From assembly GCA_025774865.1 (NCBI GenBank), contig JALGZO010000488.1, forward strand, positions 1 to 7,122: a stretch of 7,122 nucleotides of DNA, given 5' to 3'. A program made the position numbers and the translations under genes. Under the pieces are notes generated by a model. That model searched no databases. It saw nothing but the letters and a program-made list of their open reading frames with translations, and was not told where the DNA came from. Shown here piece by piece: positions 456 to 7,011 of this stretch (its first letter is position 1; each line of letters begins with the position of its first letter). This DNA is from a bacterium (lineage in GTDB: Bacteria; ARS69).

Positions 456-2834
456 ATGGCGCCCTTCAAGGAAACTCGGTTGCGCTTGCTCTCGTCGGCT
501 CTTCTCATCGGTCTCGCGCTGCACGCCTCCGCGGCCCGCGCCGCCGACGATGGCACCGGCATCGCCATCATCGCCGATGGTCCGGGGCCACGAAATCTCG
601 AGATTCTGCAGATCTTCCACCAGGAGATTCGGGACCTTCTGGGAGAAGAGTTCCGTGTCACTTTCACCAACGACGGTTTGATCGAGGCGGACTGGACCGT
701 CGCCGGCGTCAACGCCGCCTTCGACGTCGCGTTCGCCGATCCCGCCGTGGACGTCGTGGTCGGACTCGGCCTCCTGGCCTCGCACGAACTGTGCGGGCGC
801 GGTCCGCTCGCGAAGCCGGCCGTCGCCCCGTTCGTGGTGGATCCCGAGGCGCAGGGGCTTCCCCTGGTCGGCGGCAAGAGCGGTGTGAAGAATCTCTCCT
901 ACGTGACCTCGATCTCGCAGCTGAAGCGCGACTTCGAGACGTTCCGCGAGGTCGTCGACTTTCGGAAGCTCACGATGATCGTCTCGTCGACCACCGCCGC
1001 GGCGATCCCGGAACTCGGCGAACGGGCTCGACGCATCGGCGCGGGAATCGGGATCGAGGTGACCGTTGTTCCCACCGGGCTCTCGGGTGAGGAGGCTCTC
1101 GCCGCGCTGCCGCCCAACACGGAGGCGGTCTACCTGGCTCCTCTGATCCGGATGTCCGGGCAGGAGTTCGACAAACTCGTCGCCGGCTTCATCGATCGCA
1201 GGCTGCCGAGCTTCTCCCTGCTCGGGCGTCGTGAGGTCGAGCGCGGCGTGCTCGCCGGTCTCACGCCGGAGTCCGAGTTCCCGCGACTCGCGAGGCGGAC
1301 CGCGATCAACATCCAGCGCATGCTCCTCGGCGAGGACGGCGGCTCCATCGCGGTCCACTTCTCCAACGAGGAGCGTCTGAGCCTCAACGTCGCGACGGCC
1401 CGCGCGATCGGCGCGCGTCCGAGCTGGTCGGTGCTCACCGTCGCGGACCGCGTCGACGACGAGCGGCGCGAGGTGGTCCGGACACTTTCGATCGGGCAGG
1501 CCGCTCATGAGGCGATCCTGGTGAACCTCGATCTGCTCGCCGCCGAGAGCGCGGTTCAGGCCGGCGCGCAGGACGTGAACGTGACGCGCTCCTTCCTTCT
1601 ACCGCAGCTCGACGTCTCCGCTCGAGGCATCCTCATCGACCAGGATCAAGCGAGCCAGTCGCTCGGACAGGCCGCCGAGCGCACGCTGGAGGGCTCCGTC
1701 ACACTCAACCAGCTCCTCTACGCCGATGACGCGTGGGCGAACTTCGACATCGAGAAGCATCTGCAGATCGGCCGCGAGCGGGCGCGCGATCAGCTCCGGC
1801 TCGACATCGGACAGGCCGCGGCGACTGCGTATTTGAACGTTCTCCGCGCGAAGACGGCCGAGCGCATCCAGAAGGACAACCTCGAACGAACGCAGGCGAA
1901 CCTCGACCTCGCGAGGGCCCGTGAATCGGTCGGCTACTCCGGCCCGGGGGAAGTCTATCGCTGGGAGGGAGAGATCGCGCGCCAACGACGGACGGTCATC
2001 GAAGTGAACTCGCTGCGAAACATCGCCGAGATCGAGCTCAACCGGCTCCTCCACCGACCGCTCGAGGAGCCCTTCGCCCTGGAGGACACCGATCTTGACG
2101 ATCCGGACGTGGGTATCCCGGACGAACGACTCGTCCGCTACCTCGGCGACAAGTGGTCGTTCGGGATCCTGCGCGAATTCATGTCGATCGTCGCCCGAGA
2201 GAACTCCCCCGAGCTTCAAGTGCTCGAAGAGTCGATCGCCGCGCAGGAGCGGGTCCACGAGGCGGCCAGTCGCTCGTTCTTCATCCCGACGATCGGCCTC
2301 GCGGGCGCACTGAACCACACCTTCACCCGCCGGGGTGAGGGATCGGACGGCGTCCTGACCCCTGAGGACACGGACTGGAACGTCGGGGTCCAGGCGTCGC
2401 TGCCGATCTTCTCCGGGGCCGGGCGGCTCGCAGAGAAACGCAGCGCCCAGGCGTCGCTCGATGATCTCACCACACAACGCGAAGCCATCGCGGAGCGAGT
2501 CGAACAACGGCTCCGTTCGGCGATGCACCGAGCCGGCGCGTCATTCGCCGCGATCGAGCTCTCGCGGGCCTCAGCCGAAGCGGCGCACAAGAACCTCGAC
2601 CTCGTGCTCGACTCTTACGCGAAGGGGATTCTGACGATCCTCGACCTGCTCGACGCGCAGAACACTTCCCTCGTGGCGGAGAGCGAGGCCGCCACCAGTG
2701 TCTACGACTTCCTGATCAACCTCCTGGAAGTCGAGCGAGCCGCCGGCTACCTCAGCTGCGTGTCCGACGCCGCCGAGAAGGCCGCCCTCATTGATCGCCT
2801 GGAACGATTCCGAAAGGAGCGAGAGGGCCCATGA
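456..2834 (+). CDS. TolC-family outer membrane efflux channel with N-terminal ABC substrate-binding-like domain
   Basis: This is the outer membrane factor of the tripartite pump: a trimeric beta-barrel plus alpha-helical tunnel that lets substrate leave the cell. Residues 1-29 form a Sec signal peptide (K5, R8, R10, a hydrophobic core, and ARA before a cut at 29/30). Residues about 31-330 resemble the ABC_sub_bind (TrpX-like) type of periplasmic binding fold: VDVVVGLG (98-105), KPAVAPFVVDP (120-130), NLSYVTS (146-152), a second-lobe strand LTMIVSS (172-178), and a C-terminal stretch 279-320 with the family-like pattern 'R-x-A-x-x-I-x-x-ML-x-GE ... LSLN-x-x-TARAIG'. Residues about 345-765 are a full TolC domain with two helical repeats: SFLLPQLDVSA (379-389) and FFIPTIGLAGA (608-618) precede the beta strands, and LASPIFSG-like SLPIFSGAG (648-656) and GILTILDLLDAQN (724-736) are typical. 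The total of 792 residues exceeds the usual 420-470 because of the extra domain. The reading frame is continuous across the junction, so this is a true fusion. The ATG at 456 lacks a Shine-Dalgarno; a TTG at 480 preceded by AAGGAA (468-473) is an alternative start. The stop overlaps the next gene by 4 bases. Confidence 0.9.
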   Translation: MAPFKETRLRLLSSALLIGLALHASAARAADDGTGIAIIADGPGPRNLEILQIFHQEIRDLLGEEFRVTFTNDGLIEADWTVAGVNAAFDVAFADPAVDVVVGLGLLASHELCGRGPLAKPAVAPFVVDPEAQGLPLVGGKSGVKNLSYVTSISQLKRDFETFREVVDFRKLTMIVSSTTAAAIPELGERARRIGAGIGIEVTVVPTGLSGEEALAALPPNTEAVYLAPLIRMSGQEFDKLVAGFIDRRLPSFSLLGRREVERGVLAGLTPESEFPRLARRTAINIQRMLLGEDGGSIAVHFSNEERLSLNVATARAIGARPSWSVLTVADRVDDERREVVRTLSIGQAAHEAILVNLDLLAAESAVQAGAQDVNVTRSFLLPQLDVSARGILIDQDQASQSLGQAAERTLEGSVTLNQLLYADDAWANFDIEKHLQIGRERARDQLRLDIGQAAATAYLNVLRAKTAERIQKDNLERTQANLDLARARESVGYSGPGEVYRWEGEIARQRRTVIEVNSLRNIAEIELNRLLHRPLEEPFALEDTDLDDPDVGIPDERLVRYLGDKWSFGILREFMSIVARENSPELQVLEESIAAQERVHEAASRSFFIPTIGLAGALNHTFTRRGEGSDGVLTPEDTDWNVGVQASLPIFSGAGRLAEKRSAQASLDDLTTQREAIAERVEQRLRSAMHRAGASFAAIELSRASAEAAHKNLDLVLDSYAKGILTILDLLDAQNTSLVAESEAATSVYDFLINLLEVERAAGYLSCVSDAAEKAALIDRLERFRKEREGP
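2813..2827 (+). promoter_or_regulatory. Ribosome binding site for the adaptor gene
   Basis: AAAGGAG at 2813-2819 is a strong Shine-Dalgarno match, 11 bases before the ATG at 2831. A second purine-rich stretch, GAGAGGG (2821-2827), ends 3 bases before the ATG. Both lie inside the 3' end of the channel gene. They support the ATG at 2831, with the ATGA overlap, as the real start. Confidence 0.6.
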
Positions 2835-3937
2835 AACGCCTCCCGAGGTGCGTGCCGTCGCTCGCGGCTCTGCTTCTCTCCACCGCCTGCGCATCCGAGC
2901 CGGCCGACGACGCGCCGATCATCCGCCCGGTGCGTTACCAGGAGGTGTTCGCGACGGGGGCGGGGCGCACGAGGTCGTTCTCGGGCACGGCCCAGGCGGG
3001 GCTCGAGACGCGCCTCAGCTTCAAGGTGGGCGGAACGATACAGCAGCTCGACCTCGAGATCGGGGACCGCGTGAACGCCGGCCAGACGATCGCGCGGCTC
3101 GACCCGACCGACTACCAGCTCAGCGTTCGTGACACCGAGGCTGCGCTCTCGAGGTACCAGGCGGAGTCCCGTCAGGCCCTCGCCGACTACGAGCGGGTTC
3201 GTTCGCTCTACGAGAACGACAACGCCTCGCGCGCCGACCTCGACGCGAGCCGCGCTGCCTCCGAAGCCAAGTCCGCCGGAGTCGGCTCGGCCGAGCAGAA
3301 GCTCGCGATGGCGCGCTTGAACGTGGAGTACACCACTTTGAAGGCGCCGGTGGCCGGCGCGATCTCCGACGTCGCCGTAGAGGTGAATGAAAACGTGAAC
3401 GCCGGTCAGGTGATCGCGGTACTGACCTCCGGCCAGCGGTCCGAGGTCACCGTGACGATTCCGGAAGCGCTCATCGGCGCGGTTCGCGAAGGCGACGCCG
3501 TCCGCGTCTCGCTCGACGCCCTCGCCGGCCGCGAGTTCGGGGCGACCGTCACGGAGGTGGGCGTCACCGCCGCGCGGACGGGAGCGGCGTTTCCGGTCAC
3601 GGCCCGCTTGAACGACGAGACCGACGACGTGCGCCCGGGCATGGCGGCGGAAGTCGAGTTCCGGTTCGCGGCCACCGGGCCGGAACGGATCTACGTGCCG
3701 GCGTCCTCCGTTCTGGAGGACCGCGAGGGGCGTTACGCGTTCGTCGTCGAGCGGACCGATCCCGGCTTCGGTGTCACGCGGCGCCGCGCCGTCGAGGTCG
3801 GGGACATCACCGCGAATGGACTGGTGATCCGCGCCGGCCTCGAAGACGGCGATCTCCTCGTCACGGCCGGTGTCACGAAGATCCAGGACGGCATGCGCGT
3901 GAGGCTCCCGCTGCCTGTGCCCCAGCCCGCTTCATGA
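2831..3937 (+). CDS. RND efflux periplasmic adaptor subunit (membrane fusion protein), lipoprotein
   Basis: This is the periplasmic adaptor that joins the inner-membrane RND pump to the TolC-like channel. It has 368 residues, normal for the HlyD/AcrA-type family. The N-terminus is a lipoprotein signal: K2, R3, R6, a short hydrophobic stretch and STAC with lipid-accepting Cys20. Residue -3 is Ser rather than the usual Leu, which is tolerated; Ala21 follows rather than Asp. Domains in order: first half of the lipoyl/barrel-sandwich domain with FKVGGTIQQL (64-73) and GDRVNAGQTIARLDP (78-92); a single alpha-hairpin coiled coil (about 95-165); second lipoyl half with LKAPVAGAISDVAVEVNE (170-187) and VNAGQVIAVL (189-198); beta-barrel domain (about 203-277) with VRPGMAAEVEF (267-277); and a membrane-proximal domain (about 283-360) with YVPASSVLEDREGRYAFVV (288-306). 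The start is fixed by the Shine-Dalgarno and the ATGA overlap with the channel gene. The stop again overlaps the next ATG by 4 bases. Only one adaptor gene is present, so the adaptor is probably homomeric. Confidence 0.95.
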   Translation: MKRLPRCVPSLAALLLSTACASEPADDAPIIRPVRYQEVFATGAGRTRSFSGTAQAGLETRLSFKVGGTIQQLDLEIGDRVNAGQTIARLDPTDYQLSVRDTEAALSRYQAESRQALADYERVRSLYENDNASRADLDASRAASEAKSAGVGSAEQKLAMARLNVEYTTLKAPVAGAISDVAVEVNENVNAGQVIAVLTSGQRSEVTVTIPEALIGAVREGDAVRVSLDALAGREFGATVTEVGVTAARTGAAFPVTARLNDETDDVRPGMAAEVEFRFAATGPERIYVPASSVLEDREGRYAFVVERTDPGFGVTRRRAVEVGDITANGLVIRAGLEDGDLLVTAGVTKIQDGMRVRLPLPVPQPAS

Positions 3938-6900
3938 CTGAGTTCGCGATCCGCAACAACCGGATCACGTTCGTCGCGATGCTCGTCATCCTCGTGAGCG
4001 GGCTGACCGCGTACCGGGGCATGCCGAGATCCGAGGACCCCGGCTTCATCATCCGCACCGCTGTCGTGCTGACCTACTTTCCGGGGGCCAGTCCCGCCCG
4101 CGTCGAGCAGCTCGTCACCGACAAGCTCGAAAAGACGATCCAGGAGATCCCGCAGATCGACTTCATCAACAGTCGTTCGAAGACCGGCCTCTCGGTCATC
4201 TACGTCAACATCCGCGAGGAGTTCTCCCAGATGCGCCCGATCTGGGACGATCTGCGCCGCAAGGTCGACAAGGGGCGCAGCGAGCCCCCGCCCGGCATCA
4301 TCGGCCCAATCGTGAACGACGAGTTCGGCGACGTCTTCGGAATCGTGATGACCGTCACCGGCGAGGGTTACTCTTACGCGGAGCTCAAGGAAATCGCGGA
4401 CGACGTCCGCGACGAGCTGCTGAGACTCCCGGACGCCGCCGAGGTCGACATCTACGGCGCCCAGGAGGAACGGGTCTTCGTCGAGTACAACAACGCGCGG
4501 CTTTCCGAGCTGAACATGTCGGCGGCGCAGCTCGAGCAGATCCTGGGGAGTCGAAACATCATCATTCCGGGTGGCGCGATCGACCTCGGCCCGGAACGAA
4601 TCGCGCTGGAGCCTTCCGGGAACTTCGAGTCCGTCGACGACGTGAGGCGGACCGTGATCAACCTGCCGGGGTCGAGCGAGCTCATCTACCTCGAGGACCT
4701 GGTCAGCATCAAGCGGGGGTACATCGATCCTCCCGAGTCGAGAGTGCGCTCGACCGGAGAGCCGGCGCTCGCGCTCGCGATCTCGATGAAGGACGACGGG
4801 GACATCATCGCACTGGGCGCCGGCGTCGAGGCCCTGAAGGCCCGACTCGAGTCGATCTACCCCATCGGCGTCGAGTTCCACCTCGTCGCGTTTCAGCCGC
4901 GTGTCGTCCAGAAGAAGGTCCAGGACTTCGTCCGTAGCCTGGCTCAGGCCGTCGGTATCGTGATCCTCGTGATGCTGGTCTCGCTCGGCCTGCGCACGGG
5001 GCTGGTCGTGGCGAGTCTCATACCCGCCGCCATCGTGACCGCGTTCATGGTCATGGGGTTCTTCGGGATGGGCATCAACCAGATGTCCCTCGCGGCCCTG
5101 ATCATCGCGCTCGGTCTCCTCGTGGATAACGCAATCGTCATGGCGGAATCCATCATGGTGCGGATGCAGGAAGGCGAGGAACCCGTGCGGGCCGCGGTGG
5201 AGAGCGCCGCGGAGCTTCGCATCCCGCTCCTCACCTCCTCTCTCACGACCGCCGCCGCCTTCCTCCCCATCTACCTGGCGGAATCCTCGACGGGTGAATA
5301 CACCGCCCCGATCTTCGAGGTGGTCACGATCACTCTGCTGTCGTCATGGGTGCTGGCGCTGACTCTCACGCCGCTCCTCTGTGTTCTGGTGCTGAAAGTC
5401 AAGAGGCGCCAGACCGAGGGCTCGTTCGACTCGCGGTTCTACCGGACCTACCGCGGCGCGCTCATCGGCGTTCTCGAGCATCCGCTGCTCTCGCTTCTCG
5501 GCGTGGGCTTGATCTTCTTCCTGGCGATGCAAGGCTTCCGTCTCGTGCCGAACATCTTCTTCCCCTCGGACGACACACCGATCTTCTCGGCGGAGTTCGA
5601 GCTTCCCGTCGGCAGCCGCATCCAGCGCACCGACGAAGTGGTCGCCGCATTCGAAGATTACGTTGCGACCAATTACCGGAAGGGGCCGGACGACGAGGAG
5701 GGCGTCACGAACTGGGGCAGTTTCATCGGCACGGGGGCACCGCGCTACATCCTGACCTACAGCCCGGAGCAGACAACCCCCGAGTACGCGTATCTGATCA
5801 TGAATGCGACGTCGCGAGACTACATCGATGGCATCATTCCCGACCTCGAGGAGTTCTGTCTCGAGCGCTTCCCCGACTTGAAGGTCACGATCGAACCGAA
5901 GCTCCTCGGACCTCCGATCGAGGCGCCCATCCAGGTCCGGCTCTCCGGAAACGACGCCTCCGAGCTCTTTCCCATCGTCGACGAAGTGAAGGAGATGCTC
6001 CGCGCCATTCCGGGCGCCAAGGACGTACGGGACGACTGGGGGGCTCGGGTCAAGAAGCTGGTGGTGGACGTGAACGAGGCCCGGGCGCTGCGGGCCGGAC
6101 TGACGAACCAAGATGTTGCCATTTCCCTCCAGACTCTCCTTTCCGGCTGGGAGTCGACACAGTATCGCGAGGACGACAAGATCATCCCGGTTGTCCTGCG
6201 TTCCGTCGCCGCCGACCGGCAAGACATCGGCAAACTCGAGAGCATGAACATCTACTCGCAGGCGACTGGACGCAACGTGCCGTTGCTGCAGATCGCGGAC
6301 GTCGAGCTCGAGTGGGAACCGTCGGTGATTCTACGCCGAGATCGATTGAAGACAGTGACCGTGTCCGCCGATGTGCGACGCGGCGTCACCCCGACCGAAG
6401 TCACGAACAAGCTGATCCCCATGATCGACGACGCGAAGCGGACTTGGCCCTTCGGCTACGTCTACGGAATGGGCGGCGAGCTCGAGGGGTCGGTGAAAGC
6501 CTCGCAATCGATCGGCGCGAAGTTACCCATCGGTTTCCTCATCATCGTGTTCTTGATGGTCGCCCAGTTCAACTCCATCCGCCGCCCGATCATCATCCTG
6601 CTGACGATTCCGCTCGGATTCGTCGGGGTCGTGATCGGCCTCATCGTGGGGCAGTCCTACTTCGGCTTCATGACGCTGCTGGGAGTCATCTCGCTCGCGG
6701 GCATCGTGATCAACAACGCCATCGTGTTGCTCGAACGGATCAAGCTCGAGATCGAAGAGACGGGGCTGGAACCGGCCCAGGCAGTGGTCGAGGCGGCCCA
6801 ACGACGCCTCCGGCCGATTCTCCTCACGACGGCGACGACCGTCGGCGGCCTCGTGCCGCTTTGGCTCGGGGGCGGCCCGATGTTCGAGCCGATGGCGATC

Positions 6901-7011
6901 GCGATTCTGTTCGGGCTTCTGTTCGCGACGTTTCTCACTCTCGGCGTCGTGCCGCTTCTCTACTCGCTGTTCTTCCGGGTCCGTTTCAAGGGATTCGAGT
7001 ACGACCGCTGA
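3934..7011 (+). CDS. RND-family efflux transporter permease (AcrB/HAE-1-like)
   Basis: This is the inner-membrane, proton-driven RND pump, expected to be trimeric, that takes substrate from the periplasm or outer leaflet and passes it to the channel. Its 1025 residues and two-fold repeat are standard for the family. Membrane segments fall at about 10-29, 333-352, 355-380, 384-404, 430-450, 462-488, 517-537, 863-878, 884-906, 910-933, 960-980 and 984-1012. Large periplasmic loops lie at 30-332 and 538-862. The first loop opens with the EDPG motif (34-37) and YFPGASP (48-54), frequent in one branch of COG0841 pumps. TM4 carries GLLVDNAIV (394-402). Lined up with AcrB, D398 matches Asp407, N399 replaces Asp408, N927 in GIVINNAIVLLE replaces Lys940, R958 matches Arg971 and T965 matches Thr978. 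CusA-type metal signatures were not seen, so drug, lipid or metabolite export is more likely; the substrate is unknown. The gene has no Shine-Dalgarno; the ATGA overlap (3934-3937) suggests translational coupling to the adaptor gene. Confidence 0.96.
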   Translation: MTEFAIRNNRITFVAMLVILVSGLTAYRGMPRSEDPGFIIRTAVVLTYFPGASPARVEQLVTDKLEKTIQEIPQIDFINSRSKTGLSVIYVNIREEFSQMRPIWDDLRRKVDKGRSEPPPGIIGPIVNDEFGDVFGIVMTVTGEGYSYAELKEIADDVRDELLRLPDAAEVDIYGAQEERVFVEYNNARLSELNMSAAQLEQILGSRNIIIPGGAIDLGPERIALEPSGNFESVDDVRRTVINLPGSSELIYLEDLVSIKRGYIDPPESRVRSTGEPALALAISMKDDGDIIALGAGVEALKARLESIYPIGVEFHLVAFQPRVVQKKVQDFVRSLAQAVGIVILVMLVSLGLRTGLVVASLIPAAIVTAFMVMGFFGMGINQMSLAALIIALGLLVDNAIVMAESIMVRMQEGEEPVRAAVESAAELRIPLLTSSLTTAAAFLPIYLAESSTGEYTAPIFEVVTITLLSSWVLALTLTPLLCVLVLKVKRRQTEGSFDSRFYRTYRGALIGVLEHPLLSLLGVGLIFFLAMQGFRLVPNIFFPSDDTPIFSAEFELPVGSRIQRTDEVVAAFEDYVATNYRKGPDDEEGVTNWGSFIGTGAPRYILTYSPEQTTPEYAYLIMNATSRDYIDGIIPDLEEFCLERFPDLKVTIEPKLLGPPIEAPIQVRLSGNDASELFPIVDEVKEMLRAIPGAKDVRDDWGARVKKLVVDVNEARALRAGLTNQDVAISLQTLLSGWESTQYREDDKIIPVVLRSVAADRQDIGKLESMNIYSQATGRNVPLLQIADVELEWEPSVILRRDRLKTVTVSADVRRGVTPTEVTNKLIPMIDDAKRTWPFGYVYGMGGELEGSVKASQSIGAKLPIGFLIIVFLMVAQFNSIRRPIIILLTIPLGFVGVVIGLIVGQSYFGFMTLLGVISLAGIVINNAIVLLERIKLEIEETGLEPAQAVVEAAQRRLRPILLTTATTVGGLVPLWLGGGPMFEPMAIAILFGLLFATFLTLGVVPLLYSLFFRVRFKGFEYDR

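Follow-up and report, generated by a model that had tools for sequence, protein, structure and literature searches.

What is an uptake-type binding module doing at the N-terminus of a TolC outer-membrane channel that is encoded beside an efflux pump? The question is raised by an open reading frame of 792 amino acids (positions 456–2834), open throughout, in the window, by which we mean the whole stretch of 7,122 nucleotides analysed; all features described are on its forward strand. The frame begins with a signal peptide (residues 1–29, 456–542), read by eye as Sec type from its n-region, hydrophobic core and an ARA followed by AD at its end, and containing no lipobox. It continues with a domain of the ABC_sub_bind fold, a type I periplasmic binding protein (residues 30–334, 543–1457), a short linker (1458–1484) and a complete TolC/OEP outer-membrane channel domain that includes the stop codon (1485–2834). 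The uninterrupted frame of signal peptide, binding domain and full TolC described in an earlier note on this DNA is thus real. Its limits for the binding domain, 543–1445, are right at the start and are better extended to 1457 at the end.

The fused gene heads a compact operon. The start of an RND periplasmic adaptor (MFP) gene (2831–3937; TIGR01730 RND_mfp, 235 bits against a cut-off of 94.9) shares four bases with the stop of the fused gene, and the start of an RND efflux permease gene (3934–7011; ACR_tran, 2.6e-158) shares four bases with the stop of the adaptor gene. Adjoining adaptor and AcrB-type permease genes with overlapping starts identify an RND tripartite efflux operon. An importer function was rejected because importer genes, for permease or ATPase, are absent; an operon made of adaptor and exporter instead supports the earlier view that the domain was repurposed away from an ABC importer. 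Upstream, the window opens with the last part of a gene for a Ser/Thr protein kinase, coding for its C-terminus (1–399; Pfam Pkinase, 1.7e-14), co-directional with the fused gene and 56 bases from it. A kinase in this place is absent from nearly all other loci examined, and a search across the loci for a conserved upstream gene, regulator or kinase beside the operon found none, so the kinase fragment is probably incidental.

The identity of the N-terminal domain became visible only through a family alignment. The binding domain of the window by itself gave no match in Pfam or NCBIfam, and was also missed in a single-sequence search of the PDB. Four of five aligned domains (that of the window and four from other genomes) match ABC_sub_bind, and PF04392 was matched by 14 of 17 aligned relatives (best 3.8e-9); the sequence-profile assignment is therefore made via relatives, the window sequence alone staying below threshold. 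The domain profile matched 3LKV (1.1e-9), 3LFT (2.1e-6) and 6HNI (4e-6) in the PDB, and hhalign aligned the fused family with standalone ABC_sub_bind proteins over 290 columns (99.7%, E 2.7e-25). An AlphaFold2 model of the isolated domain (pLDDT 92, pTM 0.87) returned chains of the 3LKV, 3LFT and 6HNI proteins as the top five Foldseek matches (best E 2.1e-17). The VIA Z scores were 25.6 for 3LKV, 24.4 for 3LFT and 23.8 for 6HNI, spanning 20.9 to 25.6 over the five best chains, and the next binding proteins scored about 17 to 19. The window domain is thus predicted to fold as a type I periplasmic binding protein, like 3LFT, 3LKV and 6HNI. Profile and structural tests agree that the N-terminal domain has the ABC_sub_bind fold, which bears out the family pattern that had been noticed in about 300 residues; a check of residues 30–340, in which the lack of a periplasmic-binding fold would have spoken against it, found the fold present.

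The C-terminal part is TolC, with two OEP repeats (E 7.2e-40) and a full-length TolC fold (Z 28.6–29.9, about 29 to E. coli TolC 1EK9). In a model of the full-length protein, residues 3–305 align with 3LKV and residues 312–744 with TolC; TolC residue 1 falls at model residue 315, which, measured from the end of the 3LKV alignment at 305, leaves about 10 residues for the linker. This monomer model (pTM 0.69) gives no usable inter-domain confidence, so that the placement of the domains has to be taken from TolC itself. TolC is a trimer, and its N-terminus lies in the periplasmic equatorial region. By analogy we infer that each channel trimer carries three binding domains at its waist on short linkers, in agreement with the number proposed in the earlier note.

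One mundane explanation is that two genes were joined by an assembly or annotation error. The window is a single 7.1-kb contig of a fragmented genome of 785 contigs, so the join called for independent evidence. The TolC part, however, has no preceding signal peptide, none being found at the junction, and the identical join recurs in dozens of unrelated assemblies. Among five genomes of the same phylum, a second one encodes the entire fusion (47% identity), and another carries its two halves at the ends of two contigs. A scan of genome contigs gave 18 loci, recorded as Gemmatimonadota, Acidobacteria, Aminicenantes, Proteobacteria, Bacteroidota, Ignavibacteria and Thermodesulfobacteriota; all those with enough sequence are fused, and one (L036) has the domain split over two frames. 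With strong matches defined by E of at most 1e-40, 15 of 199 genomes from the phylum of an acidobacterial member and 16 of 274 from the class of Aliikangiella marina contained one, again fused except for BON variants, described below, and one truncated gene. In the latter (L103:4421-6459) the frame stops shortly past the binding domain and an RND fragment comes next, as would result from loss of TolC and adaptor or from misassembly. A fused member with both Pfam domains above their cut-offs also lies on the complete plasmid pSULKU01 of a cultured strain, Sulfuricurvum kujiense DSM 16994 (Campylobacterota). Since independent assemblies carry the fusion, the artefact reading was rejected, and we regard it as having next to no probability. 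Nearly every homologue is fused, the opposite of the always-separate homologues that would have undone the earlier proposal.

The association holds from the side of the channel as well. When the TolC part alone was used as a query against 193 genomes, 14 of 16 strong matches were fused; of the other two, one breaks off at the junction, where its contig ends, and the other, a weaker match, is truly unfused. Possession of the binding domain thus nearly defines this TolC subfamily. The fused TolC branch is old and conserved, and is present in at least seven phyla.

The pump encoded alongside is less constant. At 33 loci the fused gene is accompanied by an MFP and an RND permease, nearly always in the order fused gene, MFP, RND, whereas at eight loci it stands with an HlyD-type adaptor, an RbbA-like ATPase and a YhhJ-like ABC-2 permease, in two gene orders. 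At three loci (L015/L023, L017/L031 and L022) a pump next to the fused gene was not found. The earlier note had suggested checking whether the architecture always neighbours an RND/adaptor pair; it does so at the 33 loci and not at the eight with an RbbA/YhhJ-type ABC exporter. Given these two kinds of partner, the domain travels with the channel and not with pump type or energy source. On pSULKU01 (L136:7127-14933) a TetR regulator, the fused gene, an HlyD adaptor, RbbA and an ABC permease form a plasmid-borne exporter operon.

A tree was built from 60 domains, comprising 41 fused to TolC, three fused to BON domains and 16 from standalone ABC_sub_bind proteins. A branch with support 100/99 separates the 41 fused and three BON-fused domains from the 16 standalone proteins. 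Pairwise identities of domain and channel are strongly correlated (Mantel r 0.84; best of 5000 permutations 0.32). The dN/dS values in five close pairs are 0.06–0.10 for the domain and 0.06–0.11 for the channel, and in two more diverged pairs 0.22–0.24 and 0.25–0.31, respectively. Domain and channel have diverged together under purifying selection of about equal strength, and these data show that fusion to the channel N-terminus occurred once and was then kept. The BON-type proteins, all acidobacterial (L115:2188-3840, L119:2545-4266 and L134:1438-3096), have the same domain followed by one or more BON domains and no TolC; the Pfam run covered L115 and L119. They are nested within the fused clade, which indicates a partner swap, and no pump gene was seen beside any of the three. 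The nearest unfused relatives by profile score are standalone ABC_sub_bind proteins that are extended at the N-terminus (L101:5176-7658 and L102:4330-5523), two such genes standing in tandem at L101; the surroundings at both loci hint at no function. A further protein (L105:3680-5671) apparently contains two ABC_sub_bind-like domains in tandem.

In TrpX and its relatives, CD0873 and VC_1101 among them, the aromatic amino acid is bound by T108, A127, T129, D152 and N233 in the numbering of S. suis TrpX (PMC9382623, after PMC6816091). These positions were placed on the fused proteins by alignment; for N233 the alignments disagree by one residue. The window domain has L106, F126, V128, S152 and I231 (or R232) at these positions and keeps none of the five residues T, A, T, D and N that make contact in TrpX and CD0873; in the set of 41 fused proteins, too, each of the five is seldom present or missing altogether. 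Hydrophobic or small residues take their place in 95% (T108), 95% (A127), 93% (T129), 80% (D152) and 73% (N233) of the fused proteins, with Phe at the A127 position in 17 of 41, and the Asp of the DNT motif has become Leu in 36 of 41. Elsewhere in the domain, D41, G42, W80, K120, Y149, R281 and N285 are highly conserved among the fused proteins, and standalone members have other residues there. Judged from these alignments, the cleft is shown to be remodelled rather than left to drift, with a lining predicted to be mostly hydrophobic. A TrpX-type amino-acid ligand was accordingly rejected, the contact residues having been replaced, and the description "TrpX-like" that the domain had been given is, by its residues, true of the fold and not of the ligand. 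Some of the standalone ABC_sub_bind proteins compared likewise have no TrpX residues, so amino-acid binding is not general in ABC_sub_bind.

The explanation that we consider best, with a probability of roughly 40%, is a TolC subfamily, fused once, whose waist domains would bind a predicted ligand and so influence how readily the channel opens or the adaptor docks. The three domains, held on short linkers round the waist in the periplasmic equatorial region, would have as their ligand a hydrophobic or amphiphilic compound of the periplasm, probably one that is transported or acts as a signal. Opening and closing of the two lobes beside the waist would then favour or disfavour opening of the TolC iris or docking of the adaptor, an effect that could serve whichever adaptor and pump are encoded alongside, RND or ABC. 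A sensing role fits the surroundings of other family members: the other ABC_sub_bind protein of the window genome (L039:1-2442) directly adjoins a HAMP-HisKA sensor kinase, the two frames overlapping, and another ABC_sub_bind match adjoins a SpoIIE phosphatase gene. Counting against ligand control, cleft positions beyond the conserved Leu vary among relatives, the cleft could be occupied by bulky side chains, Phe for example, and there is no conserved upstream regulator or metabolic gene to hint at a ligand.

The closest rival, which we hold to be rather doubtful, is that the domain no longer binds any ligand and serves as a scaffold round the TolC waist, fixing the channel towards peptidoglycan or the outer membrane. 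What makes it serious is an analogy. The lipoprotein YbjP sits on the equatorial domain of E. coli TolC in a 3:3 complex, stays bound during opening and is dispensable for efflux in standard conditions (PMC13095208, PMC13082787); the waist can therefore carry three globular partners. Loss of the amino-acid contacts would suit such a collar, as would the three acidobacterial proteins in which BON, an envelope-binding module, replaces TolC as the partner. The same holds for the lipobox pattern: missing from the window protein, it is absent from all but one of the 41 fused proteins, which therefore have no lipid anchor of the OprM/CusC type. A scaffold, however, has no need of a two-lobed binding fold, and strand-end residues expected on the cleft side (D41, G42, G105, S109 and Y149) stay conserved; the Asp of the DNT motif has moreover turned into a conserved Leu instead of drifting. 

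The domain might instead gather export substrate in the periplasm, concentrating it near the pump or channel. A predicted hydrophobic cleft would suit the usual substrates of RND pumps, and nearly all copies of the domain are joined to an export channel whose operon includes a pump. However, the domain is retained alongside different types of pump, and no lateral entry into the sealed tunnel is known. In the complex of 33 nm the adaptor tube separates the TolC waist from the RND entry sites a long way below (PMC13095208), so hand-over of substrate to the pump looks unlikely; capture as a whole seems improbable to us, and more so than a collar.

Ligand control of the channel, the preferred reading, would have consequences beyond this locus. 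TolC channels are usually regarded as passive exit ducts that are opened by adaptors, and to our knowledge a ligand-gated control step is not known for TolC systems. It is conceivable, if on balance unlikely, that the fused proteins are ligand-gated outer-membrane exit ducts, in which detection of a compound by the channel's own domains would trigger its opening or recruitment of the pump, in RND and ABC exporters across phyla. More generally, a widespread branch of channels that carry a conserved binding-protein module of their own, beside RND or ABC pumps, would mean that the outer-membrane component can itself incorporate sensing of ligands, anchoring or capture; an outer channel with an uptake-type binding module may sense or hold a compound. 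The fused branch offers a clean comparison, with the domain present or absent and an RND or an ABC partner, on how channel opening is controlled.

In a literature search, which left aside a Burkholderia surface proteome paper containing both Pfam numbers, no paper was found that describes ABC_sub_bind joined to OEP/TolC. The architecture is visible in databases, as the earlier note had thought possible, and apparently unremarked: a Pfam scan of WP_041667226.1 of S. kujiense, named in RefSeq only "ABC transporter substrate binding protein", finds the same two domains as in the window, both above cut-off. This protein differs from that of the window in being paired with an MFP, RbbA and an ABC permease instead of RND. 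In common with TolC/OprM outer-membrane factors, the window protein has a complete OEP channel domain encoded with an adaptor and a pump, and it differs from them by the extra 300-residue domain between signal peptide and TolC N-terminus. YbjP offers a likeness in position, as a globular domain at the TolC waist with three copies per trimer, which by analogy would be expected of the window domain too; YbjP is a separate lipoprotein that is not covalently joined to the channel, and the relation between the two is one purely of analogy. TrpX (SP1069, 3LFT), VC_1101 (3LKV) and CD0873 (6HNI) share their two-lobed fold with the whole window domain (Z 24–26) at about 12–20% identity. Unlike these, the window domain is fused to TolC, has no importer genes beside it, follows a signal peptide without a lipobox and has its amino-acid-binding residues swapped, mostly for hydrophobic ones.
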